A stretch of DNA of 22,777 nucleotides from a virus. Positions 2,478-21,325 of the stretch are shown piece after piece. Under the pieces are notes generated by a model. It made no database searches. It was not told the DNA's origin and saw only the letters and a program-made list of their open reading frames with translations. A program made the position numbers and the translations under genes. The stretch spans positions 1-22,777 of the IMG/VR virus record IMGVR_UViG_3300009610_000257; one strand, given 5' to 3'. Numbering within the stretch: position 1 is the stretch's first letter; each line of letters starts with the position of its first letter.

Positions 2478-4145
2478 ATGTTCCAGACTAGGCTGGTTGA
2501 TGGGGCTGTCCAGAAATATTGGCAGCCCTTCAAGACACAAGAAGATTTTCTTAAGATACCTGATACCGTCAAAGAAGCATTCTTTGGTGGGAAGTTGGGT
2601 GGTGGAAAGTCTGATTGTCTCTTGATGTTACCAGTCGTTAGGAACTGGATTAATATTCCTGGGTTTGAGGGAGTGATTTTTCGTCAATCATTCCCTCAGC
2701 TTGAGGAATCATTAATCCCTAGAAGCAAGGAATACTACTATCCTATCGGTGGCAAGTATAATGAGTCCAAGCATTTCTGGACTTTTACATGCCGTGATGA
2801 GGATGGCAGACAGACTGGAGTTTCTTATATCAGATTGTTATTCCTAGAAGATGAAGCAGACGCTAGAGAGCATGACACTGCCGAGTTTCCTTATATTGGA
2901 TTTGATGAGTTAACTCACTTCTCATGGTGGGTTTACTCATACATGAAGACTAGGAATAGAACATCCATTCCTAATCTTCCTTGCATTATTCGTAGTGCAA
3001 GCAATCCCGGAAACATCGGCCACGGTTGGGTAAAGAAAAGATTCATAGACCCAGAGAAGCATGGATACAAATTAATTATCGACCATAAGACGAAGGAACG
3101 GCGCATCTTCATTCCTTCATCATTGGAAGATAATATCTATATCCAGAACAAGGATTCATACGCCAACTCCTTGAAGGATTTGCCTGAAGCTGAGTATAAG
3201 GCTAAAGTCCTCGGAGATTGGGAAGCGTTTTCTGGGCAAGTGTTTGAGGAGTTCCTGAAGTTCCCATTAGATGGTGATACCTCAGGAAAATGTCATACTT
3301 GTTCTGCTTTTGAAATACCAGTCTGGTGGAAGAAGTTTGTTTCTATAGACTGGGGATATGTTCATCCTACTGTCATTCATTGGTTTGCTCTTGCTCCTAC
3401 TGGAAGGGTATACCTCTATCGCAGATACGCCGCCAAGAAGCAGAAAGTATCACAGTGGGCATCGACGTTCTCGCTACTATCGCGTGAGGAAGAATACGAG
3501 TTCATCAAACTCGACCCTTCAGCTTGGCAGAACAGAGGGACTGAGCAAACAATAGCTGAGGAGTTTCAGAAGTATTCAGGTAAGACTCCTACTAAGGCTG
3601 ATAACGACAGACTTGGTGGGAAGCTCCTATTACATGAATACTTGAGACTCACTCCTAGAGCAAGACCAGAAGTCTCAACAGAGTATGATGCAGACTTTGC
3701 TCAGTCTCTGATGCGCCAAGGTAATATGCGTGAGTTTGATGTCTATATGGCACAATTCACGCCTGTAATTCAGGATGAGAATCTTCCTAAATTACAAATC
3801 TTCGAGCAGTTCGATGAAGTATGCGAGACTCTCACAACTTGTGTCTATGACCAAGACGCAAAGGCTAAGAGAGCAGAAGACGTAAAGAAGTGGGACGCTA
3901 CAGACGAGACAATTGGAGATGATGATTACGATACTTTGAGGTATGGTCTAAAAGGAATAGACAAATACATCGAAGAAGTCGAATCAATCTCAAAGGGACT
4001 AGCTAAACTAGGAAGCATCTATGCAGACCTCGAAACATCCGGTAATCAAACAGCGTTTTATCGGCGCTTGGAAAGTCTTGAGAGGTCAAATAGTCCTGGT
4101 AGAGCCAAACTCTACAAGTCTCTCGGGAGAAGCCGTCCATTCTGA
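2478..4145 (+). CDS. terL: Terminase large subunit (packaging ATPase/nuclease)
   Basis: This 555-residue motor pumps DNA into the procapsid and cuts the concatemer. The ATPase domain has a Walker A-like GKLGGGKS (38-45), a Walker B YIGFDEL with the D143-E144 pair and motif C SASNP (173-177). The nuclease domain begins near residue 285 with SIDWGYVHPT, D291 being the first expected metal ligand, and YDADFAQSLMRQ further on fits a later part of the RNase H-like fold. Length is usual for large terminases. The ATG lies 3 bases after the preceding stop and has only a weak ribosome site, suggesting translational coupling. The last 125 bases overlap the next gene in another frame. Confidence 0.97.
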   Translation: MFQTRLVDGAVQKYWQPFKTQEDFLKIPDTVKEAFFGGKLGGGKSDCLLMLPVVRNWINIPGFEGVIFRQSFPQLEESLIPRSKEYYYPIGGKYNESKHFWTFTCRDEDGRQTGVSYIRLLFLEDEADAREHDTAEFPYIGFDELTHFSWWVYSYMKTRNRTSIPNLPCIIRSASNPGNIGHGWVKKRFIDPEKHGYKLIIDHKTKERRIFIPSSLEDNIYIQNKDSYANSLKDLPEAEYKAKVLGDWEAFSGQVFEEFLKFPLDGDTSGKCHTCSAFEIPVWWKKFVSIDWGYVHPTVIHWFALAPTGRVYLYRRYAAKKQKVSQWASTFSLLSREEEYEFIKLDPSAWQNRGTEQTIAEEFQKYSGKTPTKADNDRLGGKLLLHEYLRLTPRARPEVSTEYDADFAQSLMRQGNMREFDVYMAQFTPVIQDENLPKLQIFEQFDEVCETLTTCVYDQDAKAKRAEDVKKWDATDETIGDDDYDTLRYGLKGIDKYIEEVESISKGLAKLGSIYADLETSGNQTAFYRRLESLERSNSPGRAKLYKSLGRSRPF

Positions 4146-4420: not shown

Positions 4421-6823
4421 ATGTATCCTCCTGACGACGAACTTTCAGACCAAGAACCTGAGTTTGACTTGGGCGGAGAAATGGCCGCCCATGATGAACA
4501 GGTAGATTCTGAAATGTCTGGCGAGCCGGGCATGGAAGAAGAATTGCCTGAAGAAGCCGCGCCGTTAGAAGAAGAACTGGTAGAACCGGAAGAAGAAGAA
4601 GTCGAAGAACCAGATGATACAGAAGTTCAGAATATAATCTCTGGCCTGACCCAACAGTATGACGTAATAGAGCAGCCAGTTCGTGAGTCTCGTTCGCGTA
4701 TGCTGAAGCTCTTGGACTTATACTGGCAGGGTCTAACAAACTGGTTCTGGTCTGAGGCGTTGATGGACTGGCGTCCCATTACTTCCGATGATTTGGGAGA
4801 AGATGGAGAACTGCCAAAGACTATCAACGTCTATAAGCCTTATGGTGAATCTATCATCGCGGCCTTGTCAGCGGCAGTCCCAAAGACTAGATTCTACCCT
4901 GAGGATGCAGACAATTACGATGATATCGTTACGGCCAAGACGAAATCAGTAATTGTTGACAAGGTAGAACTGGACAACGAAGCAGAGCTTCTCCTAATGA
5001 AAGCTCTCTTTATCATTTTCAATCAAGGCCCAGTCGCAGCATACATCAAGTCTGAGAATTACGGGAAGTCTGAGAAGAAACCCGTAATGGGCCAGCAAGA
5101 GAAGCAAGTAGACGATTTTGTCTGCCCACAATGTGGCGCTCCCATGATGCCGTCTATGGAACAGATGGCACAATGTGAGTCTTGCGGATTCCAAGGACAA
5201 CCAATCAATGACCCAAAGGTTGAAATCGAAGAAGTAATTGAGAGGCATGAAGAACTCTACAGAAAGAAGATTTGTATAGAGCTTTATGGCGCATTCCATT
5301 TCTTCGTTCCTGCGTGGGTCAGAACTCAGAAAGAAACCCCATATATCGGCTGTGATTACGAAGCCGATTTATCGTGGGCAAAAGATACCTACACGAACGT
5401 CGCGGATTCGATTCAAGGCACACCGTCGCCGGATACATACTTGAGATGGGCGAGACTGACATCGCAGTATATCGACCAGTCCACGACTCAGCTTGTAACT
5501 ATCCGCAAGAGATGGTATCGTCCGTGGGCATACAATATGCTCGCGGCAGAACAGGCTGAACTTCTGAAGACGCGCTTCCCACGCGGCTTATTCGTCACCT
5601 ATGTGAATGACCAGATTGCAGAATATAAAGAGGAAGAACTCGATGATGTCTGGCACATCTCTGAGAATCCTCTTTATAATGATATTTTTGGTCAGCCTAT
5701 GGGCCGTGGCTTAGTTGATGTTCAAGATTTGTCTGACGAACTCCTGAACCTCACAAGAGACACAGTAGCTCAGGGAATAGGCGTCACGTTTGCAGACCCG
5801 TCTGTATTAGATATACAGAAGTGGCGGCAGTCAAGGGCAAGACCTGGTGACGTATTCCCCACGAAGCCGTCATTAAACAAAAACATCTCAGATGGATTCT
5901 ACCAGACTACCGTCGCCAATCTCTCACAAGAAGTTGACAGGTTCGTCAACAGAATTGAGATGATGGCACAGTTCACGTCTGGTGCTTATCCTTCAATTTA
6001 CGGCGGCGTGCAAAAGTCTGGTTCTGGGACTTTCGGTGAATACGAGTCCAACAAGAATCAGGCACTTCAGAGACTCCAAATCAACTGGAGAGTTCTTGGT
6101 AATTGGTGGGCACAGCTTATGAGTAAAGCTGCCAACCTCTATATCAAGACTATGGAAGTCGAAGAAGACAAGTATGTCTCCAAAGTTGGGAATCAGTTCG
6201 TAAACAACTGGATTAAGAAATCTGAACTTCAGGGTTCGATTGGATTAGTCCGGGCCGAATACAACGAACAATTCCCAATCTCTTGGTCCCAGAAGAAGGA
6301 CATTGTTACGAACCTGCTAACACTGGGGAACGAACAAATCAATATGATTCTGGGCCGTCCTGAGAACAGCAGTCTCATCTCATCTATTCTGGGCCTATCA
6401 GAAATCTTCATTCCCGGTGAGGATGATAGGAATAAGCAGCTGTGGGAAATCCTGGAACTTATCAAGACTTCTGACCAGTTCCAGCCATCTATTCCTGTTC
6501 CTCCCGGAATGGACCCAGAGATGGCAGCACAGCAGGGAATGGGACTACCACCACAACCTACTGTTCCTATCGAACCTGAGACTGATGACGATGAAGTCCA
6601 CGTTGCAGTCTGCAAGGAGATTCTCAATAGTGAGAAGGGTATTCTCCTGAAGCAGACGAACGATAACGCCTATCAGAACATTCTTGCTCATCTTCGCCAG
6701 CATGTAGACAAGCAGGCTCAGGATGAGATGAATGAAATGATGAAGCAGTCCCAGATGCAACAGATGGGAATGACTCCTCCGCCAGAAGAAGGTGGTGAAG
6801 TTCCTCCTGAGGAGACATTGTAA
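4421..6823 (+). CDS. Portal protein with acidic N-terminus and zinc-ribbon-like insert
   Basis: This 800-residue protein follows terL and precedes the scaffold and capsid genes, as expected for the dodecameric DNA-entry portal. Residues 5-68 are almost wholly acidic and probably disordered. The body (about 80 onward: YWQGLTNWFW, the VYKPYGESIIAALSAAVP segment, then long helical segments) fits large podovirus portals. C235-x2-C238 and C252-x2-C255 form a likely zinc ribbon between the early body and EEVIERHEELYRKK. The C-terminal part is Gln/Met/Pro-rich, consistent with a barrel or tail extension. The ATG follows the previous stop by one base. Assignment rests on size, order and sequence feel, not on an alignment. 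Confidence 0.88.
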   Translation: MYPPDDELSDQEPEFDLGGEMAAHDEQVDSEMSGEPGMEEELPEEAAPLEEELVEPEEEEVEEPDDTEVQNIISGLTQQYDVIEQPVRESRSRMLKLLDLYWQGLTNWFWSEALMDWRPITSDDLGEDGELPKTINVYKPYGESIIAALSAAVPKTRFYPEDADNYDDIVTAKTKSVIVDKVELDNEAELLLMKALFIIFNQGPVAAYIKSENYGKSEKKPVMGQQEKQVDDFVCPQCGAPMMPSMEQMAQCESCGFQGQPINDPKVEIEEVIERHEELYRKKICIELYGAFHFFVPAWVRTQKETPYIGCDYEADLSWAKDTYTNVADSIQGTPSPDTYLRWARLTSQYIDQSTTQLVTIRKRWYRPWAYNMLAAEQAELLKTRFPRGLFVTYVNDQIAEYKEEELDDVWHISENPLYNDIFGQPMGRGLVDVQDLSDELLNLTRDTVAQGIGVTFADPSVLDIQKWRQSRARPGDVFPTKPSLNKNISDGFYQTTVANLSQEVDRFVNRIEMMAQFTSGAYPSIYGGVQKSGSGTFGEYESNKNQALQRLQINWRVLGNWWAQLMSKAANLYIKTMEVEEDKYVSKVGNQFVNNWIKKSELQGSIGLVRAEYNEQFPISWSQKKDIVTNLLTLGNEQINMILGRPENSSLISSILGLSEIFIPGEDDRNKQLWEILELIKTSDQFQPSIPVPPGMDPEMAAQQGMGLPPQPTVPIEPETDDDEVHVAVCKEILNSEKGILLKQTNDNAYQNILAHLRQHVDKQAQDEMNEMMKQSQMQQMGMTPPPEEGGEVPPEETL

Positions 6824-11836: not shown

Positions 11837-13690
11837 ATGATTGCCGAACACGAGAGAAAAACCATCTCAGAGTTCTATGGCACATACAGAAGGGGGACGG
11901 CTGATGTCGTCCCTCTCCAGTATGACATAGAAAATCTGAATGTGTCTTTTGACCAGAATGAGGTAAAGACTCGTTCGGGGTATATTCTCGACCTTCCATT
12001 CCCCGGCAACATTCTACGTGTTCATACCTACGAAAAGTCGAATGAGGCAACTCGTTATCTCATTCTTCGTGATAATGGGTCTATCTACGATAGCACTGCC
12101 CCTAGCACTCCTATACTTTTTATTGATGGTATGCTGGATTTCTCTTGTCAGGTAATGTTTGACAGAGCATACATCAGTCCACATAATGGCAATACAGGAC
12201 TTCCCGGCCAATCCGTATACGTCTATGAAGGAGCAGGATTAGCCAGAGTAGCAGGTGGAAATGCTCCAGTATCTGCACCTACAGTAGCTAATTCTACTAT
12301 CAATGGTCACGTAGAAGCTGGCATTCACTTATTCGCCATAGCCTATGAGACTAATTCTGGTTTTATTACAGCAGAAGGACTAGCAGCACAATTAACTTCT
12401 GTTGGTGATAAGAAAGTAGCTATCTCAGCAATTCCCCTTGGACCTACTGGAACGATAGCTAGGTATGTCTTAGCAACTAAGAAGTTGATAGGAACATACA
12501 ATGGCAATAAGGACCAGTATGAGTTTTACTTTGTTCCAAATGGTCGAATTGGAGACAATACTACTACCACATTAACAGTTGATTTCTATGATGCGGACTT
12601 ATTGGCGTCTGCTGATTATCTTAGGAATCAGCTTGCTACTATCCCTGCTGGTGTGGGGTTAGGAATCTATAAGGGCGCTCTCTGTGTCTGTGGAGAAGAT
12701 GCAAATCCTGCAAGAATCAGAATCTCAAAGTTCAACGACCCAGAGTCTCATGATTCTGTAGCAGGATATGTAGACTGCTATCCTAAGGACAATGGTGGTT
12801 CCGTAAAAGCTGTAGTTGAGTTCAGAACGCAGCTTAATCTCCATAAATCCTTTAGGAGTTACGTAACTGTAGACAATGGTAGTAGCCCGTCTTTCTGGCC
12901 TGTCAATAGTCTTGACGTTGCCATTGGCACGGAAGTCTTTGGGATTGCTAAGGTTCTAGACATCAATGGTTCTACTGGAGACAATTACATTGCAGCGTCC
13001 CGTAAAGGTCTGATGCTGTTCAATGGATTGTTCTCTATGGAATTGTCTGCTAATTTCAGTGATAATTGGAAAAGAATTACTAAGACACATTTCAACATAG
13101 TCACACTAGTCCTTGACCCAATACATGAGTGTATGTATGTAATGGTGCCATTGGACGGCGCGACTGTATGCACACATATCTTCTTCATAGACTTTACCGA
13201 GGGCATGGACATAGAGACTGTTAAGTGGTCACTATGGAACATGAGCAAGAGTCTGGCAGCCGTCTTTGTAGACTTAGTCTATTCTACTAAGAAAGCAGAG
13301 ATGAAGTTTGCTGCCATCGCAGGTAATATCTATAAGATGGATGATGACACGCTAAATGACAATGGTATAGCCATTGAATCATATGTGAGGTTTGCACAAA
13401 TATCGTTTGACAAAGCAAGAGGAATGTGCTTCTTCTCGGGTATCAGACCAAGAATCAATGGTAATGGTATCCTACAAATAAGAGCACTCTCTATTGATGA
13501 AGTCTTGACCGTTGATGCTGCAAGCATAGTCTTGTCAGATAAACCCGGTCTGATTCCACTTAGAGAGTTCTTTCTACAGTCCGAAGCTTGTTCTATTCTT
13601 CTACGTGTTTCTACCATTAACGAATGGTTCTCATTGAGAGAACTGAATGTATTTGGGGTGCCACTCTGGAATGAACGGCCTAATATCTAA
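11837..13690 (+). CDS. Probable tail nozzle/hub protein
   Basis: This 617-residue, strand-rich protein follows the adaptor region, where short-tailed phages encode the nozzle that extends the DNA channel (P22 gp10 or T7 gp12 role). Repeated short beta units such as TRYLILRDNGSIYDS, NYIAASRKGLMLFNG and KFAAIAGNIYKMDD look like blades of a beta-propeller. The N-terminus MIAEHERKTISEFYGTYRRG resembles nozzle proteins that begin with a peripheral strand and helix. It starts immediately after the previous stop. No enzymatic motif is visible. An alternative is another large tail-hub protein; the exact homology would need a structural search. Confidence 0.6.
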   Translation: MIAEHERKTISEFYGTYRRGTADVVPLQYDIENLNVSFDQNEVKTRSGYILDLPFPGNILRVHTYEKSNEATRYLILRDNGSIYDSTAPSTPILFIDGMLDFSCQVMFDRAYISPHNGNTGLPGQSVYVYEGAGLARVAGGNAPVSAPTVANSTINGHVEAGIHLFAIAYETNSGFITAEGLAAQLTSVGDKKVAISAIPLGPTGTIARYVLATKKLIGTYNGNKDQYEFYFVPNGRIGDNTTTTLTVDFYDADLLASADYLRNQLATIPAGVGLGIYKGALCVCGEDANPARIRISKFNDPESHDSVAGYVDCYPKDNGGSVKAVVEFRTQLNLHKSFRSYVTVDNGSSPSFWPVNSLDVAIGTEVFGIAKVLDINGSTGDNYIAASRKGLMLFNGLFSMELSANFSDNWKRITKTHFNIVTLVLDPIHECMYVMVPLDGATVCTHIFFIDFTEGMDIETVKWSLWNMSKSLAAVFVDLVYSTKKAEMKFAAIAGNIYKMDDDTLNDNGIAIESYVRFAQISFDKARGMCFFSGIRPRINGNGILQIRALSIDEVLTVDAASIVLSDKPGLIPLREFFLQSEACSILLRVSTINEWFSLRELNVFGVPLWNERPNI

Positions 13691-15190
13691 ATGGCTACTC
13701 GCGTCGATACAGTGCAGTCTCTCATCGAGGGTCTACAGTTCTCAGACCCTAGATTATACGATGCACTAAAGCTTCTAGTAAACGGCATGGTGGAACTTCA
13801 GAACGAAGTTTTCCCCATTCTGGAATCAATCTCCCAAATCACAACGCTTCCAATTCCCGGCACAGCCACGGGATTTAATTACTCGACTTCTCCACGCATT
13901 CTTCGTCTATTCTGGGACGCAACTCCTGACGCAAGATTCTATGAAATAAGACGGGGCAGTGATTGGGCCACTGCTGTTCAGATAACTATTGTTGCAGTTA
14001 CTGAAGTTAGACTCGACCCAATTCCATCAGGTGTTACCAGATATCTATTAAAAGCTCTTAATGGTAACGGAGTCCCGTCCGCTAATTCTACATATGTAGA
14101 CGTAATAATCAGCAATCCTGGCACTACGACTGTCACAGGACGTGTCATTGATAATAACGTCCTATTGTCATGGTCAGTCCCAACGTCTATCTGGGAAATT
14201 GATTATTACATAGTCAAGAGAAATGGTCAGTCAGTTGGCAATCAAAAAGGAACATTCGCTGTCATCTTCGAGACTGTAGCAGGGACGTTCCTTTACAGTA
14301 TTACTCCAGTAGACTTGGCTGGAAATGTCGGGCCGGAATCGACAATCTCTCTAACAGTCAATCAGCCACCTGATTTTGAGTTACAGGACTATCGAGTATC
14401 CATTCTTGATGGATTGAAGATAAATGCTCTTGTAATCGGTTCTCCTTATCTTGGCTGGAAGAATGATGTTGATTTAGGCTGGGATACAGACCTTCTAGTA
14501 GGTCAGGATTGGACATGGGACAACGCTAATACTGGTAAACTTCTGGTCTGCGTAGGCACAGAGGAATACGACAATCATTTCACTGATAGAGCTTGGGACC
14601 AGCCATCTGACCAAGTAGGACTTGGCTATCCAATCTATATTCAGCCTGGCTTCTTAACAGCGAAGTATCAGGAGATAATTAATTATGGAACCGTGATACC
14701 AGACACGATTCTAAATATTAATTATACTCTTGAACAGTTAGTTACTACTGGCACAGTAGCAGCTAATTCTACGATAGAGTTTTCTCTGGACAATCTTACG
14801 TGGACTCCAGTAATTAATGGTAAATCAGCATTTGGAAGTAATTTCCAGTATGCTAGGATTACTGTTAACTTCACTTCCAGCAATGATAAAGCACTAGCCG
14901 TCTTCTCTAGCTTGATTGTCACATTAGATGTCAAGAAAGAAGTTGACTCTGGTAGTGTGATAGCCAATGCTAATGATGTTGATGGAACTCTTGTAACTTT
15001 CAACAAGCAGTTTAAGGACATAGATTCTCTTACAGCTACTCCAGGTTCATCTGGGTCTATTGAGCCATTAAAAGTTGTCATTAACTTTGTAGACATTCCT
15101 AATCCTACTCATTTCTACGTGTTCGTATTTGATGAGACTGGATACAGGCGCACATACACGGTAGCTTGGAAAGCTAGGGGAATAACATAA
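13691..15190 (+). CDS. Tail-tip or fibre-base protein with FnIII-like domains
   Basis: This 499-residue protein begins with a helical segment (about 10-50, likely trimerising or anchoring). Two fibronectin type III-like domains follow: about 56-140, with LRLFWDATPDARFYEIRRGSD, and about 145-224, with VLLSWSVPTSIWEIDYYIVKRNG and the closing SITPVDLAGNVGPES. The remaining half is strand-rich (residues about 230-495), containing DLGWDTDLL and two SLDNLTWTPV-like strands, and recalls tail-tip proteins downstream of the lambda J type. It begins directly after the nozzle stop and ends in TAATG with the next gene. A host-recognition or fibre-attachment role is inferred. Confidence 0.7.
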   Translation: MATRVDTVQSLIEGLQFSDPRLYDALKLLVNGMVELQNEVFPILESISQITTLPIPGTATGFNYSTSPRILRLFWDATPDARFYEIRRGSDWATAVQITIVAVTEVRLDPIPSGVTRYLLKALNGNGVPSANSTYVDVIISNPGTTTVTGRVIDNNVLLSWSVPTSIWEIDYYIVKRNGQSVGNQKGTFAVIFETVAGTFLYSITPVDLAGNVGPESTISLTVNQPPDFELQDYRVSILDGLKINALVIGSPYLGWKNDVDLGWDTDLLVGQDWTWDNANTGKLLVCVGTEEYDNHFTDRAWDQPSDQVGLGYPIYIQPGFLTAKYQEIINYGTVIPDTILNINYTLEQLVTTGTVAANSTIEFSLDNLTWTPVINGKSAFGSNFQYARITVNFTSSNDKALAVFSSLIVTLDVKKEVDSGSVIANANDVDGTLVTFNKQFKDIDSLTATPGSSGSIEPLKVVINFVDIPNPTHFYVFVFDETGYRRTYTVAWKARGIT

Positions 15191-16299
15191 TGGCATCGCA
15201 ATGGATTAGGTGGCGCAACGATACTCACATCTATGAGTATTCAATAGACTTTGGTGCCAATTGGGGACCATTGCCTCTGGATGCCTCTATCCTAACTCAG
15301 GGGACAATTAACCCTGCTAGATTACCGAGTGGGTTGGTAGACCCTGCTGGTAATAACGTATTGACTGGTGTCAATGTCCTATCTAATGTTTATCCTAGAC
15401 TTACCTTTAATGAAACTGATGCAGCAGTTTCACTCAGGAATTGGGATATTGGTGCTGACGGCTCTGTTTTCAGACTGAGGGCTTTGGATGATGCGTTTGC
15501 ATTATTAGCCAATCTTGTAGGAGTTACTCGTGCTGGACAGGTTGCTATAGTTCCAACGGCTCCGGGAGTAGCATTAGACATAACTTCTGGACTTAATCCT
15601 AATCTAGCAGTGAGTATACGTAATACTGATGCTGGCTCTAATCGGACAGCTGGCATTTTACTGGGTAATGATACAGGGGTAGGATACGGGCAGTTAGTTA
15701 TAAATTCTTCAGGATATACACCATCTGCTTGGAATCTGGCAGGTGGCTTTACAATCCTAGGAGCAGGAGCAGGTGGTATTAGTCTTGCTGCTTCTCATGC
15801 AAATGGAGAGCTTCGATTCTATTCTGGTGGCTCTGCAAATCCTAGATTGACTCTCCAAGTCTCTGGTAACTCAGTCTTTCTTGGAACAGTTACCGAAAGA
15901 AATCGTTCTGTTGCAATAGGAGACTGGGCTTCCTATACTCCAGTCTGGTCATCTTCTGGAACTCAACCTACGCTTGGCAACGGCCAATTGAGTGGTAGAT
16001 ATACAAGAGTAGGTAAAACAGTCTATTTTGAATTTCTCTTTGTTTACGGCTCTACCTCTAATGCTGGCACTGGAGCTTATTGGTGGAATCTCCCACTTAC
16101 GGCAGCTGGATATGCAACATTCGTTGGTAAGTATTTGAGGAGTGGTGCAACTTATCAAGTTTGTATGGGCGTCTTTAAGGATGCAAATAGTTTCCAGATG
16201 CTTGCTCATGGAGTTGCTTCTCAGTTTGGTGCAACTGTCCCATTTGTTTGGGCAGTTAATGACCAATTTCAGGTGAGCGGATTTTACTCAGAACCTTAA
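15190..16299 (+). CDS. Tail fibre / receptor-binding protein
   Basis: The 369-residue product shares its start with the previous stop (TAATG). The N-terminus (MASQWIRWRNDTHIYEYSIDFGANWGPL) is probably the virion-attachment part. The shaft has LTQGTINPARLPSG and repeated Gly/Asn/Ala-rich strands. The C-terminal 120 residues (from about 245, DWASYTPVWSSSGTQPTLGNG then GRYTRVGKTVYFEF) match a widespread lectin-like fibre tip that I recall from many phage fibres. This region should bind the host surface. No chaperone gene is seen beside it. Confidence 0.8.
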   Translation: MASQWIRWRNDTHIYEYSIDFGANWGPLPLDASILTQGTINPARLPSGLVDPAGNNVLTGVNVLSNVYPRLTFNETDAAVSLRNWDIGADGSVFRLRALDDAFALLANLVGVTRAGQVAIVPTAPGVALDITSGLNPNLAVSIRNTDAGSNRTAGILLGNDTGVGYGQLVINSSGYTPSAWNLAGGFTILGAGAGGISLAASHANGELRFYSGGSANPRLTLQVSGNSVFLGTVTERNRSVAIGDWASYTPVWSSSGTQPTLGNGQLSGRYTRVGKTVYFEFLFVYGSTSNAGTGAYWWNLPLTAAGYATFVGKYLRSGATYQVCMGVFKDANSFQMLAHGVASQFGATVPFVWAVNDQFQVSGFYSEP

Positions 16300-16310
16300 A
16301 AGGAGATATC

Positions 16311-16580
16311 ATGACACTCCGTTCCACTGAATTAAAGCTAAATCAAGGTGTTGGTAGAAGTCTCGTCAAACTTGCCATCCTTGTTATTGCTAGAACCACA
16401 ATCAAGAATAAGAATAACCTACCTGAATCAGAGGTTTTCTTGGCTAAGCGAATTCTTGATAATCCTGATTGGTATCAGGAGAGAATCTATCCTCTTATTG
16501 TAGATGATATCGAAGAAGATACCGATGATTCTACAATCATTCTCAAGGTCAAAGAAGCTCTTTCACTATTCGAGGTCTAG
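16311..16580 (+). CDS. Small hypothetical protein (89 aa)
   Basis: AAGGAG lies 8-13 bases before the ATG, one of the best ribosome sites in the window. The 89-residue protein is helical and amphipathic: a basic N-terminal third (KLNQGVGRSLVKLAILVIARTTIKNKNN) and an acidic C-terminal part (IVDDIEEDTDDS). It has no cysteine and no clear membrane helix; the LVKLAILVIA stretch is too short to be a convincing holin segment. It follows the fibre gene by 11 bases. Function unknown. Confidence 0.75.
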   Translation: MTLRSTELKLNQGVGRSLVKLAILVIARTTIKNKNNLPESEVFLAKRILDNPDWYQERIYPLIVDDIEEDTDDSTIILKVKEALSLFEV

Positions 16581-16581
16581 A

Positions 16582-16749
16582 ATGGAAACTAACGTCGATG
16601 AAATCCTAGTTAGCCTAGCTAAGAAGCAAATCATTATCGAGAAACAAGAGGCTGCTTTACAGTTACTTGTTGCTCAATATAATGAGCTAAACGAGAAGTA
16701 TCAGATTCTTGAGAAAGAACTGGGAGAACGTCCCGTAAAGGCGAACTGA
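16582..16749 (+). CDS. Small coiled-coil protein (55 aa)
   Basis: ATG 16582 is chosen because GAGG (16572-16575) lies six bases upstream; an earlier in-frame ATG at 16504 would lie inside the preceding gene. The 55 residues are nearly all predicted helix with heptad spacing of hydrophobics (ILVSLAKKQIIIEKQEAALQLLVAQYNELNEKYQILEK), consistent with a dimeric or trimeric coiled coil. It starts one base after the previous stop codon and ends one base before the next ATG. It could be a fibre trimerisation partner or a Spanin-like helper, but it has no signal peptide. Function unknown. Confidence 0.7.
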   Translation: METNVDEILVSLAKKQIIIEKQEAALQLLVAQYNELNEKYQILEKELGERPVKAN

Positions 16750-16750
16750 A

Positions 16751-17209
16751 ATGGCTGATTGGGCTGACCCTACAATAACGAGCATCTATTCAGACGTAAT
16801 AGATAAGTTCAAAGCTCGTGATATAGATGCTATCACTCTTAACAGTGGGCCAGCATCTGGTCTGCCCATTGGTGCAATTAAGTATGACCGTGTTGGTCAT
16901 AAGTTCCAAGAGTGGAGTGGCTCTGCTTGGGTGGATATAGTCCTAGCAGTAGCTGGTGGTGGAACTGGTGGTTCTATTCCCGGTGGTGGTGGTCTAGGAC
17001 TGGGAACTATGTCACTTCAGAATGCCAATACTGTTGCCATTACTGGCGGCTCTATTGTCAATCTGAATTCGTTCAGTCTTGCTTGTGACATATTGTTTAC
17101 AACTGACGGTTCTCGTAACATTGGCTCTAGTGCTGTCAGACCTAATAACATCTACATCAGGAACGGTCTAGTGATTCCAGTTGGCACCGATAAGTGGGTA
17201 ACGGCCTAG
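16751..17209 (+). CDS. Fibre-like tail protein (152 aa)
   Basis: The 152-residue protein has an N-terminal segment (MADWADPTITSIYSDVIDKFKARD) followed by GAIKYDRVGHKFQEWSGSAWVDI, an attachment-domain pattern in phage fibres, a glycine-rich linker (AGGGTGGSIPGGGGLGLGTMS) and a beta C-terminus. The end, LFTTDGSRNIGSSAVRPNNIYI, is the strand pattern seen in trimeric tail fibres. It is short for a stand-alone fibre and may be an accessory fibre or a decorating tip. Its stop codon overlaps the 17-base ribosome leader of the lipoprotein gene. Confidence 0.7.
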   Translation: MADWADPTITSIYSDVIDKFKARDIDAITLNSGPASGLPIGAIKYDRVGHKFQEWSGSAWVDIVLAVAGGGTGGSIPGGGGLGLGTMSLQNANTVAITGGSIVNLNSFSLACDILFTTDGSRNIGSSAVRPNNIYIRNGLVIPVGTDKWVTA

Positions 17210-17222
17210 GGAGAATCTAATG
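17206..17222 (+). promoter_or_regulatory. Ribosome binding leader, copy 2 of a 17-base repeat
   Basis: CTAGGGAGAATCTAATG is identical to 953-969 and contains the TAG stop of the fibre-like gene, a GGGAG site and the ATG of the lipoprotein gene. The match extends across non-coding and coding bases. Confidence 0.6.
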
Positions 17223-17699
17223 AAGAAACTATTGTTCGTGCTTCTACTTTGTCCTTTACTCGCATGTGCGTGTGATGATGACAATGATGCTTGTGAAGAT
17301 ATTGAGAATGCTGCTGTCAGATTGCAGTGCATTGAGAAGCGTGATGGTTTAGTTACACCAACTCCGCTTCCTATTCCAGTTGCAAGAATCTATACTGTAG
17401 AGTATAGAGTGATTGGAACGGCACGGAGAGCTAATATCGTATATGCAAATACGATTCATGGCTCTACAGAACTGACCACTGGACTTCCTTGGTTTGCAGA
17501 TTTCAGAACGAATCGTGACCGAGTTTTTGTTTCTTTATATGCAAAATCAGGTGGTGATGGGGTTGTAAGAGTTCAGATTCTAGTCGATGGCGTTCTTTTC
17601 AGAGAAGCCTCGACTGATGGATTCTTTGGTTCTGAAGTAGAAGTCTCTGGAACTTTTCTTCATCCTGACACAGCTTCAATAGCGAGCCAGAAGAAGTAA
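17220..17699 (+). CDS. Phage lipoprotein with MmpS-like domain
   Basis: Residues 1-18 (MKKLLFVLLLCPLLACAC) are a signal peptide with a lipobox LLAC; cleavage before C16 would leave a lipid-modified cysteine followed by CDDDNDACED. A second pair of cysteines (C25 and C37) could form a disulphide. After a proline linker (TPTPLPIPV), residues about 55-150 have the strand pattern EYRVIGTARRANIVYAN...LPWFADF...VRVQILVDGVLFREAS, which I recognise as like the MmpS C-terminal beta domain. Expression from the phage would place it on the host envelope; superinfection exclusion or receptor blocking is possible. It has a strong GGGAG site and couples to the HxD gene by TAATG. Confidence 0.75.
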   Translation: MKKLLFVLLLCPLLACACDDDNDACEDIENAAVRLQCIEKRDGLVTPTPLPIPVARIYTVEYRVIGTARRANIVYANTIHGSTELTTGLPWFADFRTNRDRVFVSLYAKSGGDGVVRVQILVDGVLFREASTDGFFGSEVEVSGTFLHPDTASIASQKK

Positions 17700-18574
17700 T
17701 GGCTAAAGCAGCAGGAAGCATCTGGATTGAGGGCACAGAGTTACATTTTGTGTCCTCATCTTCAGAAGAATACTACTATATTGGTGACTTAGTAGCCAAT
17801 AGACCTACTGCTGTTCCCGGCTCAATTTGGGTTGATGATGAACAAGTGCATTATATAGATGCACTGAAGAATGAGCGGAAAGTTGTTAATGAGATTGTAG
17901 CTGGTGTATCAGCATTATCAGGTTCTCTCTGGTCAGAACTATCAAGACTTCATTGGGTAAATGAGTTTGCTGACAGAGAGTGGAAAGGTCATTCAGACAT
18001 CATTCATAATGATGCCCATAATGATGCTGCACATCAAGATGCTGCACATACAGATGTAGTTCATAGTGATAGTCATAGTGATAGTCATAGTGATGCACTG
18101 CATCAGGATGTGCCTCATACTGATTCTCATACTGACACTCACAGCGACTCTCATAGTGATGTAGACCATAAAGATAGTCACACTGATACTCATGGGGACG
18201 CTCATAGTGATACTCATACTGACGTAGCACACGTGGATTATGCTGGTGGACATGGGGACCATCAGGACGTAGGGCATGGTGATGGTGGTTCTCCACATGG
18301 GGACCATACTGACCAAGCTCACTCTGATACTCATACAGATACTCATTCTGATGTAGCACATCAGGATGTTGCTTTTAAGGATTCACATTCAGATTCTCAT
18401 TCTGATGTGGCCCATAAAGATACTCCAGCTGTGAACACTGGACATGGAGATTCTCATACTGATGTTCCTCATCAAGATATTCTGCATCAAGATGTAGAAC
18501 ATTCAGATGTGCCATTTGTTGATATTCATACAGATGTGCCACATAACGACCAACCCGTATACGTGGGGCCATAA
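17699..18574 (+). CDS. His-x-Asp repeat protein with GSIW-repeat N-terminus
   Basis: This 291-residue protein has two regions. Residues 5-96 hold three degenerate repeats of about 35 residues, each starting GSIW or GSLW (GSIW at 6-9 and 41-44, GSLW at 75-78) with a downstream LH/VH plus aromatic (H16, H51, H85). Residues 98-284 hold 38 HxD motifs plus two FxD variants (F226, F273), spaced mostly four or five residues apart. The x position is usually S, T, Q, G, N or K. Such density of His and Asp suggests metal binding or a modification substrate. It shares TAATG with the lipoprotein before it and with the radical SAM gene after it. No signal peptide is present. The GSIW region may anchor it to the virion. 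Confidence 0.9.
   Translation: MAKAAGSIWIEGTELHFVSSSSEEYYYIGDLVANRPTAVPGSIWVDDEQVHYIDALKNERKVVNEIVAGVSALSGSLWSELSRLHWVNEFADREWKGHSDIIHNDAHNDAAHQDAAHTDVVHSDSHSDSHSDALHQDVPHTDSHTDTHSDSHSDVDHKDSHTDTHGDAHSDTHTDVAHVDYAGGHGDHQDVGHGDGGSPHGDHTDQAHSDTHTDTHSDVAHQDVAFKDSHSDSHSDVAHKDTPAVNTGHGDSHTDVPHQDILHQDVEHSDVPFVDIHTDVPHNDQPVYVGP
17990..18550 (+). repeat. Coding tandem repeat: HxD tetra/pentapeptides
   Basis: The DNA encodes back-to-back HxDx and HxDxx units, mostly CAT/CAC-NNN-GAT/GAC. Most copies differ at synonymous positions, so the peptide rather than the DNA is conserved. A local exception is 18061-18090, where a 12-base CATAGTGATAGT unit is tandemly repeated, pointing to recent slippage. Both minus-strand open frames across this stretch are shadows of the repeat. 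Confidence 0.9.
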
Positions 18575-19686
18575 TGTCTGTTGAAGTAATGCCTTCTGGG
18601 GTTAAGTGCAATCTCAATTGTAGCTACTGCTATCAGGCACCATTGAGAGATGCAGGAAACTTTACTTCAGAGGAAACATCTATCGATAAGATGATTCAGG
18701 CTCTTGAGAAGTCTGGACAGTATTTTACAGTCTTCGGTGGTGAGGCATTGTTGACTCCCATAGCAGACTTAGAAAAGCTATTCCAGTATGGCTTCAATAA
18801 GCATGGACAGAATGGCATACAGACTAATGGTTCTCTAATTACTGATGCTCACATTGAACTGTTCAATCGATACAATGTCCATGTCGGATTCTCTATGGAC
18901 GGCCCCAATGAACTCAATGATTTGAGGTGGGCTGGGTCTTTGGAGAAGACACGACTGACAACAGAAAAGAGTCATAAGGCTCTATACAAGGTTATTAATC
19001 AGCACATGCCGTGCTCTTTAATAGTCACGCTGCATAAGAAGAATGCAACAGGCGACAACCTAGTCAAGCTGAAGAACTGGTTTAATATGCTTGCTGGGAT
19101 GGGACTCAAATACGTGAGACTCCACCTGTTGGAAGTTGACCATCCTTTCGTGCAGAGTCTAGCTCTGACAGAGGATGAGGCATTCAACGCTATTGTCCTT
19201 CTAGAACAAGTTTCTAGTAAGCTAGAAATCGATACCTATTCAGACATTCCTAGAATGATGAAAGGTGAAGCATTCAGCCCTACTTGTATCTGGAACAATT
19301 GCAACCCGTTCAATACGAGTGCTGTATATGGAATTAATTCCGATGGTTCACTATCTAATTGTGGCAGAACTAATAAAGATGGAGTCAATTTCCTTAAGTC
19401 TGACTCCGAAGGGGATGAGCGTTATCACGCGCTACTCAATACACCTGAGGAATATGGGGGGTGTAAAGGATGTGAGTTTTTCCCAATTTGTGGAGGTGAA
19501 TGTCCCGGACAATCTCATGATTGGAGAGTGAGAACTTCGCACTGTTCATTGCTGAAAAGGATTTTCAGATTCTATAAGGATAGAGTCGGCTATAATCCAA
19601 TTCTGCATGATGGTCCTAGGACAAATGTAGAACATGGCGACCACTATGATTATGGTTCTACTATGGTAGTTGAGGTTAGGCAATGA
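18574..19686 (+). CDS. Radical SAM/SPASM enzyme, probable peptide maturase
   Basis: The 370-residue protein has the radical SAM cluster motif C12-x3-C16-x2-C19, a GGE at 55-57, QTNG at 83-86 and SMDG at 107-110, as expected for the partial TIM barrel that binds SAM. The C-terminus has the complete SPASM pattern: C243-x14-G258-x4-C263, then C297-x2-C300-x5-C306-x3-C310 and C324, giving ligands for two auxiliary FeS clusters; C238 is extra. SPASM enzymes modify peptides or protein side chains (anSME, AlbA and mycofactocin-type maturases). Residues 354-359 are HGDHYD, resembling the HGDHQD and HGDHTD of the neighbouring repeat protein. Overlaps of 1 and 4 bases tie it to both neighbours. Substrate is inferred, not shown. 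Confidence 0.93.
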   Translation: MSVEVMPSGVKCNLNCSYCYQAPLRDAGNFTSEETSIDKMIQALEKSGQYFTVFGGEALLTPIADLEKLFQYGFNKHGQNGIQTNGSLITDAHIELFNRYNVHVGFSMDGPNELNDLRWAGSLEKTRLTTEKSHKALYKVINQHMPCSLIVTLHKKNATGDNLVKLKNWFNMLAGMGLKYVRLHLLEVDHPFVQSLALTEDEAFNAIVLLEQVSSKLEIDTYSDIPRMMKGEAFSPTCIWNNCNPFNTSAVYGINSDGSLSNCGRTNKDGVNFLKSDSEGDERYHALLNTPEEYGGCKGCEFFPICGGECPGQSHDWRVRTSHCSLLKRIFRFYKDRVGYNPILHDGPRTNVEHGDHYDYGSTMVVEVRQ

Positions 19687-20972
19687 ACAGGCTAGATTTT
19701 ACTGATAACATTCCAGATACTACGCGAGTAGTCTGGGTATCTCAGAAGGCCAAAGATAGATGGTCGCCTGTCATTACCTCTATCAATGCTATCTGGAGTC
19801 AATTGGAGCTTGAGACAGTCTTCAGAAATGAGAGAGAAGCTACAATCCAGACTGTGGCTCCTGATAAGATTGTCAACTTCTGTAAGAGAGTAATGAGCTA
19901 CGGCTGTTTCATTACTGAGTTGGGGAAATCAGCGGATACTGGCTTTTATTCTTCTAGACATCAACCAGCAATTGAAGGTCAGCCCTATACTTACAGGGTA
20001 GCGGTGCATAGAAGCAATGTCTATTTTGAAGACAGTGTTCTTAGTGCCGTTACTAGGCTTGGTTATCCTGGGTGTTGCGCTAAGTTCTTTGATAACACTT
20101 GGAATAAGGAGCATTACTTCGATACAACGTGGCCTCAGCACTTGAACTCTCATTTATACAGGCCACATGCAAACTTGCTATTAAAGTCAATCGGACTCAG
20201 GCCGTGCTTTCATCTGCCTTGTTCTTTTGATTGTGAACATACTGAGAAAGTCTCATCTATGATTGCAAGAGTAGCCGAGCAATTGGGCTATGAGAAAATC
20301 ATGGAAGGTCTTTATCAGTTATTGGACATGCCTATGGAATGGTCAGCACTCCACGGGTATGCGGAGATTAAGACTCCAATCTTCAAGGTCATCACAAAGA
20401 CCGATGCCACTGGAGAGGAATACAAGTTTCAATTTCCGGGTAGTTTCTATCCTGATGAATCGGCTAGAGCCAATAAGTTTCCATATGTAGTTCCTGCAAA
20501 GCAGATGACTCTGTTCAAGTCACAGGATTTTGCAGAATCTACATTGTCTCCGGAGGATAATGGATTTCCAAGTTATCAAGCCGAAACTGAGGCACACAAC
20601 AAAATTCTTTCTAGCCTCTCTGACAATATTGATTCTAATGATAGCGGCGCTCTTGTGGATTTGGGGTGTGGGAATGGTCTTCTTCTGAGTAAGATTGGAA
20701 GATTATTCCCAAACCTCAAACTCTCAGGTGTTGAGGTAGAGATAGCTAAGTCAGACAAGGCTCAGCAATTACTGGGATTTGGTGTCGCTATATCGTGCAA
20801 GAATATGTTCTTGTATGACCTAGTAGATATCAAATACATTCTAATTGCTAACCAGAGAATTCTAGAAAATCCAAAGTTCCTAGAGAAACTGCACGGCACC
20901 GTGTTCATCTATGATTATCTCACTCATGAGGTTGAGGTATGCAGTTTAGATACACTAAAGAGACTGACCTAG
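19683..20972 (+). CDS. Cys-rich domain fused to a class I methyltransferase
   Basis: The 429-residue protein overlaps the radical SAM stop as ATGA. Residues about 115-200 carry YPGCC (128-132) and CFHLPCSFDCEHT (175-187), a cysteine arrangement I recall from DUF483-type proteins; it could bind a metal or FeS cluster. A linker and strand-rich segment (about 215-290) follows. Residues 325-352 (VDLGCGNGLLLSKIGRLFP then LSGVEVE) are motif I and the acidic end of strand two of a SAM-dependent methyltransferase. The fold ends at about 415. The substrate could be the HxD protein, by proximity. The DUF483 link is from memory and is the weaker part of the call. Confidence 0.75.
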   Translation: MNRLDFTDNIPDTTRVVWVSQKAKDRWSPVITSINAIWSQLELETVFRNEREATIQTVAPDKIVNFCKRVMSYGCFITELGKSADTGFYSSRHQPAIEGQPYTYRVAVHRSNVYFEDSVLSAVTRLGYPGCCAKFFDNTWNKEHYFDTTWPQHLNSHLYRPHANLLLKSIGLRPCFHLPCSFDCEHTEKVSSMIARVAEQLGYEKIMEGLYQLLDMPMEWSALHGYAEIKTPIFKVITKTDATGEEYKFQFPGSFYPDESARANKFPYVVPAKQMTLFKSQDFAESTLSPEDNGFPSYQAETEAHNKILSSLSDNIDSNDSGALVDLGCGNGLLLSKIGRLFPNLKLSGVEVEIAKSDKAQQLLGFGVAISCKNMFLYDLVDIKYILIANQRILENPKFLEKLHGTVFIYDYLTHEVEVCSLDTLKRLT

Positions 20973-21325
20973 AGTCTATCGATAGGATTTGGAAAGAACA
21001 CTACAATACATCGTTCGGATTACCTAACCTAGAAAATGTCATCATTCATGGTGTGGTAGAAGACGGGGACAAAGGTAGTGTTACTGGATTTGGCCTCGTC
21101 AAAATCTTCGCTGAAGGCATTCTGATTCTTGACAAGTCTCTATCGGCAAGACAAAAGGTAGACACTCTAAGAGAACTAATGACTGCTCAAAGATTGGGAA
21201 TAGATAGAGCAAACATTAGTCAAGTTCATGCTTTTATTCAAGACCCGACGTTCGAGTATCTCTTGAAAAAGCATTACGGCTACAAAGATACAGTTGGTAA
21301 GTGCATAGTGATGGAGACGAAATGA
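20939..21325 (+). CDS. GNAT-like acyltransferase-fold protein
   Basis: The 128-residue product starts MQFRYTKETDLESIDRIWKEHY, the usual N-terminal strand and helix of GNAT proteins. It continues with VTGFGLVKIFAEGILILDKSLS as central strands, and ends with a FEYLLKKHYGYKDTVG helix-strand pattern close to the canonical GNAT C-terminus. The classical motif A (R/Q-x-x-G-x-G/A) is not clear, so catalysis is uncertain. I recall this variant as common in environmental phages. GAGG seven bases upstream supports ATG 20939, which overlaps the methyltransferase gene by 34 bases; the next gene overlaps as ATGA. Confidence 0.65.
   Translation: MQFRYTKETDLESIDRIWKEHYNTSFGLPNLENVIIHGVVEDGDKGSVTGFGLVKIFAEGILILDKSLSARQKVDTLRELMTAQRLGIDRANISQVHAFIQDPTFEYLLKKHYGYKDTVGKCIVMETK

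Follow-up and report, generated by a model that had tools for sequence, protein, structure and literature searches.

Radical S-adenosylmethionine (SAM) enzymes of the SPASM type, among them XncB, OscB, YhhB, HaaB, AmcB and ChlB, build three-residue cyclophanes (triceptides) at aromatic-x-X3 motifs, in which an aromatic residue and the residue two positions later (i/i+2) are joined. HaaB and YhhB connect C2 of His to C-beta of residue i+2, YxdB connects Tyr to Asp, and OscB connects Trp to Asn or Asp (PMC11002830), while ChlB has been called a multiple cyclophane synthase (Ruel 2025, as cited in PMC12636437). Among phages, those of Campylobacter carry many radical SAM genes (PMC2853527), and an 'rSAM module' of unknown function, for which DNA modification was suggested, was described in 2024 in the Thermus phages Cumys and phiMa, in a text that mentions neither HxD nor histidine (PMC11437467). 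Here, we analyze IMG/VR virus record IMGVR_UViG_3300009610_000257 (22.8 kb; all 22,777 nucleotides, hereafter the window), in which a protein ending in 38 His-x-Asp (HxD) units is encoded beside a radical SAM/SPASM enzyme and a DUF483 protein. We propose, with a probability of roughly 60%, that this cassette makes a modified tail protein, the radical SAM enzyme and DUF483 iteratively linking the HxD units, most likely as cyclophanes.

In the Thermus module, an HxD protein (assigned no function there), a radical SAM enzyme and a DUF483 protein are encoded in the order found here; the window differs in that its DUF483 protein is fused to a methyltransferase and that a fourth gene follows. The initial annotation knew of no characterized phage system of this type; the module had already been named in the Thermus phages. 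With the triceptide enzymes, the locus has in common the radical SAM/SPASM fold, the aromatic-x-X3 motif and the i/i+2 spacing, and there are precedents for its residues, His being accepted by HaaB and YhhB, and Asp or Asn at X3 by OscB. Unlike triceptide enzymes, which act on short precursors of ribosomally synthesized and post-translationally modified peptides (RiPPs), the enzyme here would act on a large tail protein carrying about 10-100 units, and it has a DUF483 partner, an HxD tail of its own and scores far below curated cut-offs. The HxD system would work like a triceptide pathway and is a member of no named family at curated cut-offs.

Other described systems are more distant. The His-Xaa-Ser system (HxsA/B/C/D), to which the locus had initially been compared, likewise sets a His-x-residue repeat beside radical SAM genes. 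It has two radical SAM enzymes and Ser in its HxS repeat, and we know of no DUF483 in it. A direct relation was rejected, as the HxsB model, which has a cut-off of 370 bits, scores only 32.5 bits, reflecting nothing beyond the general radical SAM fold, and the repeat is HxD. TvgB, the maker of poly-cyclopropylglycine, is a radical SAM/SPASM enzyme that also acts repeatedly on a repeat motif, but on TVGG repeats of a bacterial peptide and with the bond formed within Val (PMC9062424). The HxH iron needle of T4 gp37 resembles the array as a His-rich motif in a phage tail tip and differs in being HxH instead of HxD, in having few sites and in lacking a radical SAM enzyme (PMC11705849). In the open-access literature on DUF483, on triceptides in phages and on radical SAM enzymes with tail fibers, HxD arrays are undescribed, subscription journals lying mostly outside that search.

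The array and its enzymes

The cassette comprises four plus-strand genes (17699-18574, 18574-19686, 19683-20972 and 20939-21325) that overlap by 1, 4 and 34 nt, coordinates and overlaps that came out the same on rechecking as in the initial annotation. It lies downstream of the terminase (2478-4145), portal (4421-6823) and tail genes, the tail block extending to ~17209. The first gene, as called, encodes an HxD repeat tail protein of 291 aa (17699-18574, +). Its N-terminal carrier domain of ~97 aa (17699-17989, +), tail-protein-like and with three GS-[ILV]-W repeats, is conserved in 83 fetched loci as well as in phiMa and Cumys. The array, the predicted substrate, follows (17990-18550, +; aa 98-284), 187 aa long and composed of 38 units, with 38 of 38 His in HxD, so that the originally described repeat of ~187 residues holds as it stood. 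Phage arrays occupy the extreme C-terminus of several unrelated kinds of carrier protein, in tail and baseplate gene blocks.

Across 51 non-redundant arrays with 1834 HxD units, Asp stands at +2 of 1834 of the 1868 array His (98%), Asn being the next commonest residue there, and successive His are mostly 5 or 4 residues apart. At -2 of Asp or Asn outside HxD, Phe occurs 38 times (3.1 expected) and Tyr 29 times (3.8 expected), and His-x-Asn is found 10 times (0.9 expected); all other residues at -2 of free Asp/Asn in the arrays are near expectation, apart from His itself, and at control offsets in the arrays there is no comparable Phe/Tyr peak before Asp. The substitutions are confined to Phe, Tyr or Trp for His and Asn for Asp, Trp and Tyr being used freely in the arrays of loci L294 and L299; H, F, Y or W comes first and D or N third, as in the aromatic-x-X3 motif of triceptide substrates. 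By analogy, these substitution rules are the grammar of three-residue cyclophane enzymes. In one 156-kb virus contig (L031, 9941-15542), two radical SAM genes and two DUF483 genes without a methyltransferase lie beside a protein whose repeat is HxN (16 HxN and 1 HxD among 18 His), which, as far as its repeat tells, represents a form of the system with Asp naturally replaced by Asn. Another locus (L297, 8282-9977) has an array mostly of HEN units (SHENVSHENV), with HxD rarer, a possible further variant of the motif.

The second gene encodes the radical SAM/SPASM enzyme, the predicted HxD maturase (18574-19686, +; 370 aa; Pfam Radical_SAM 3e-13; also matched by the radical SAM family phrog_1802). 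It has the radical SAM motif CX3CX2C at C12, C16 and C19 and the SPASM pattern C243-X14-G258-X4-C263, C297-X2-C300-X5-C306-X3-C310 and C324, that is, the full set that defines radical SAM/SPASM enzymes (CX3CX2C; CX9-15GX4C, CX2CX5CX3C, C), and these Cys are invariant in 40 aligned relatives. The complete SPASM cysteine pattern noted at the outset is hence confirmed. All 40 aligned relatives match the NCBIfam models for the dynobactin maturase, anSME, AmcB and YhhB, in each case below the cut-off. In the AlphaFold model (pLDDT 86), the best alignments are to anSMEcpe (Z 29.1) and ChlB (Z 28.9; 2.8 A, 315 residues), which tie as best structural matches. Formylglycine is the product of anSME.

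The enzyme itself bears the motif. A disordered C-terminal tail (pLDDT < 50) contains HGDHYD (19633-19650, +; aa 354-359), and most of 72 distinct radical SAM relatives have an HxD-containing C-terminal tail, with the consensus HGDxPHGDxHGDHTD. This tail may anchor the substrate, prime it or itself be a substrate of the enzyme; since it is disordered, AlphaFold says nothing on its docking in the active site. Some marine phages (L087, 10391-13315; L191; L248; L198, 4930-6885) have a tandem pair of radical SAM genes with HxD-rich enzyme tails, 25 HxD being counted at L198 4930-6885.

The third protein begins with a probable DUF483 domain (19683-20507, +; aa 1-275), assigned through the PF04467 matches of its relatives: the window protein itself scores 14.2 bits against a gathering score of 25, and among 45 aligned relatives 28 have a match with E < 0.01, the best being 1.7e-7. 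Four cysteines are conserved (131, 132, 180 and 184, position 180 being His in the Thermus phages), so a metal or iron-sulfur site is plausible. The class I SAM methyltransferase domain follows (20532-20954, +; aa 284-424; model pLDDT 92.8), with a Rossmann-like fold, the motif I sequence DLGCGNG and VIA Z scores of 12-13.5 to many class I methyltransferases; all fold-search matches of the third protein's model fell on this domain, which 35 of the 45 DUF483 partners carry. Of the SAM methyltransferase fusion originally proposed, the methyltransferase stands, as class I, and the fused part can now be assigned, through its relatives, to DUF483. Distances among radical SAM enzymes and among DUF483 proteins co-vary (Mantel r 0.60, 0 of 2000 permutations).

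Distribution in viruses and cells

A search for this gene order across phages, as suggested in the initial annotation, recovered the set in Thermus phages and in about 60 groups of viral contigs. By tblastn against phage records, the Thermus phages phiLo, phiMa and Cumys proved to encode relatives of the radical SAM enzyme that share 47-49% identity with it. In phiMa and Cumys, an HxD protein of 53-54 units lies upstream of the enzyme and a DUF483 protein downstream, and in phiLo a single radical SAM/DUF483 pair lies ~3 kb from three HxD proteins (55, 101 and 72 units; 228 in total), the genes of which directly follow baseplate wedge genes. With the enzyme as query, IMG/VR yielded 47 loci, and in most of them the radical SAM gene is directly flanked by an HxD gene on its upstream side and a DUF483 gene on its downstream side.

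Two converse scans used the HxD DNA pattern alone as the query, without the radical SAM enzyme. Near-identical contigs were merged into groups before counting, and simple repeats in other frames, which accounted for many hits of the 4-unit pattern (L068, L158, L166 and others), were excluded by requiring at least 80% of His to be in HxD. This gave 61 contig groups with dense arrays, or 60 once L166, a frame artifact, is removed, and 66 with a radical SAM gene. In 52 of the 60 genuine-array groups the radical SAM gene is on the same record, and DUF483 is present in 59 of the 66 radical SAM groups; in many groups with the enzyme and without an array, the array is below the cut-off or lost at a contig end. 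Twelve genuine-array records, all incomplete (4.3-46 kb), lack a radical SAM gene of any kind, and in five of these the array is cut off downstream by the end of the contig. Several of the records look like large marine myoviruses by gene content, with genomes far larger than the fragments. The initial annotation had reasoned that its hypothesis would fall if such repeat proteins regularly occurred without a radical SAM neighbor; mostly they do not, the exceptions with a visible flank being the seven records considered below.

The set extends beyond viruses. A scan of species genomes uncovered ~30 closer loci in cellular genomes, from cyanobacteria, Acidobacteria, Nannocystis, Plesiocystis, Bacteroidota, Bradyrhizobium, Frankia, Tahibacter, Chengkuizengella and a Diapherotrites archaeon, in which DUF483 adjoins the radical SAM gene or, in several genomes, is fused to it. 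Runs of at least 4 HxD lie near 19 of 31 cellular radical SAM/DUF483 loci and near 0 of 49 unrelated radical SAM loci (p = 1e-10), two of the 19 being overlapping-frame open reading frames (ORFs) in Bradyrhizobium, without which the count is 17 of 31. Some of the HxD proteins beside radical SAM/DUF483 genes carry twin-arginine (Tat-type) signals (L272, 12131-12499; L273, 12127-12498; L298, 12811-13299; L269, 9113-9877), which fits modification in the cytoplasm before export. Other loci (L279, L284, L287-L289, L291-L293; Bradyrhizobium, Tahibacter, a Lysobacterales genome and Aquimarina) encode leader-type ORFs of ~80-110 aa with a single C-terminal H-[IV]-D-[ILV], ending in H-I-D-I-L, V-H-[IV]-D-V or I-H-I-D-L. 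These ORFs lie at ~6640-6930 in L284, L287, L288 and L289, at 8660-8902 in L279, 6571-6894 in L291, 3038-3313 in L292 and 6532-6834 in L293, and their clusters hold further radical SAM genes; they apparently represent an undescribed cellular RiPP family. No leader-core RiPP organization is evident in the phage HxD proteins. The element common to all phage and cellular contexts is, as read from these loci, HxD. The cassette, first presented as phage-encoded, is therefore found in phages as claimed and is not confined to them, given its cellular Tat-signal and leader-type HxD relatives.

Weighing the possible readings

The recurrence in independent loci makes the hypothesis put forward initially, that the radical SAM neighbor modifies a repeat protein of the virion, the best-supported reading. 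We regard it as highly probable that the HxD array is the substrate of the enzyme and, given this, consider it fairly likely that the bond is a cyclophane. During infection, the tail protein would be synthesized with its C-terminal array; the radical SAM enzyme would take a hydrogen from C-beta of Asp and bond this carbon to the His ring two positions before it, forming a three-residue cyclophane at a cost of 2 H per unit, and would repeat the reaction along the array on Omega-x-D/N units (Omega being His, rarely Phe, Tyr or Trp). DUF483 may serve as its recognition or electron-transfer partner, and the fused methyltransferase might optionally decorate rings or Asp, although we advance methylation only tentatively. 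Some 38 stapled units would yield a stiff rod, resistant to proteases and heat, or a virion tip that contacts the receptor; for the virion location and mechanical role of the modified array our confidence is moderate.

Several points weigh against this reading. It rests on sequence and model data, and adjacency to tail genes does not establish presence in virions. The fold of the enzyme leaves the reaction unfixed, since anSME matches equally well, and the window enzyme does not reach the curated cut-offs of the named NCBIfam cyclophane families (AmcB, YhhB, GrrM/OscB and XyeB), its scores falling far under them (AmcB 65.6 of 425 bits, YhhB 58.6 of 445, GrrM 54.6 of 310). Seven incomplete records (G001, G010, G014, G015, G017, G021 and G024) show the downstream flank of the array without a radical SAM gene. 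The Phe/Tyr substitutions could also be explained by packing in an unmodified beta fiber. DUF483 is a Pfam domain of unknown function, and the methyltransferase, absent from the Thermus phages and some relatives, is non-essential.

Among the alternatives, the one that survives best keeps the array as the substrate and changes the reaction, to C-alpha epimerization, beta-oxidation of Asp or His, an N-linked His-Asp bond or methylation by the fused enzyme. Radical SAM/SPASM enzymes catalyze many reactions, with anSME a top structural match here; dynobactin holds a link from N-tau of His to C-beta of Tyr, the four conserved DUF483 cysteines could hold a cofactor, and the methyltransferase is present in most DUF483 partners (35 of 45). 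However, strict i/i+2 spacing, aromatic residues in place of His and Asn in place of Asp are what a cyclophane requires and are superfluous for single-residue chemistry, so that we consider another reaction rather unlikely.

That the array is an unmodified metal-binding fiber, like T4 gp37 with its HxH iron sites, and that the enzyme targets something else, is improbable. His and Asp do alternate in beta register, and HxH iron needles are known in phage tail tips (PMC11705849), but the window array contains no HxH motif of the gp37 type, all 38 His being in HxD. Furthermore, scans blind to the enzyme still recover it in 52 of 60 groups, the tolerated Phe, Tyr and Asn are poor ligands, the enzyme itself bears the motif, and the cellular leader-type peptides have one HxD only. 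Still less probable is the suggestion made for the Thermus module, under which the radical SAM/DUF483 pair modifies phage DNA and the HxD gene is adjacent by chance. Some cyanobacterial relatives are reported to lie near deazapurine genes (PMC11437467), but many HxD-linked loci can be explained without DNA-modification genes, HxD runs are enriched beside the enzyme (19 of 31 versus 0 of 49), and the closest structures are peptide or protein modifiers. Finally, low-complexity DNA repeats without a function at the protein level, which the differing array lengths among relatives might suggest, can practically be dismissed: the window array mixes its codons (His, 34 CAT and 4 CAC; Asp, 28 GAT and 10 GAC) and is crossed only by short or imperfect tandem DNA repeats, which places the regularity of HxD at the protein level, and HxD is kept at 98% over the 51 non-redundant proteins.

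Neighboring genes and significance

The fourth gene of the cassette (20939-21325, +) encodes a small conserved protein of 128 aa and is a real gene, with relatives in 32 fetched loci; the protein has no Pfam or PDB profile match, which leaves its earlier GNAT label neither supported nor excluded. Upstream, the tail block (11837-17209, +; genes 11837-13690, 13691-15190, 15190-16299 and 16751-17209) is co-conserved with the cassette in 34-52 loci, and gene 13691-15190 has a PHROG tail match. Immediately 5' of the HxD gene, and overlapping it by 1 nt, is a lipoprotein-like gene (17220-17699; signal MKKLLFVLLLCPLLACAC) without relatives in the other fetched loci, possibly a recent insertion, serving, for example, superinfection exclusion.

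To our knowledge, no large structural protein of a virus has been described as a target of radical SAM chemistry. If the proposed reading is true, the cassette would make a chemically stapled viral fiber of a kind not described before, represent a new class of viral post-translational modification and provide a function for DUF483, and the product would be a natural, covalently reinforced fiber with possible use as a material. The broadest form of the claim, namely that virus-encoded radical SAM/DUF483 enzymes staple tens to hundreds of His-Asp cyclophanes into the first stapled poly-cyclophane fiber and that HxD maturases generally work with a DUF483 partner, be it in phages, bacteria or archaea, has in our judgment an even chance of being right. 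The cultured Thermus phages offer a ready genetic test of the system. The finding would tie the tails of phages to a cellular, RiPP-like family of enzymes, the substrate motif of which can now be read from sequence.

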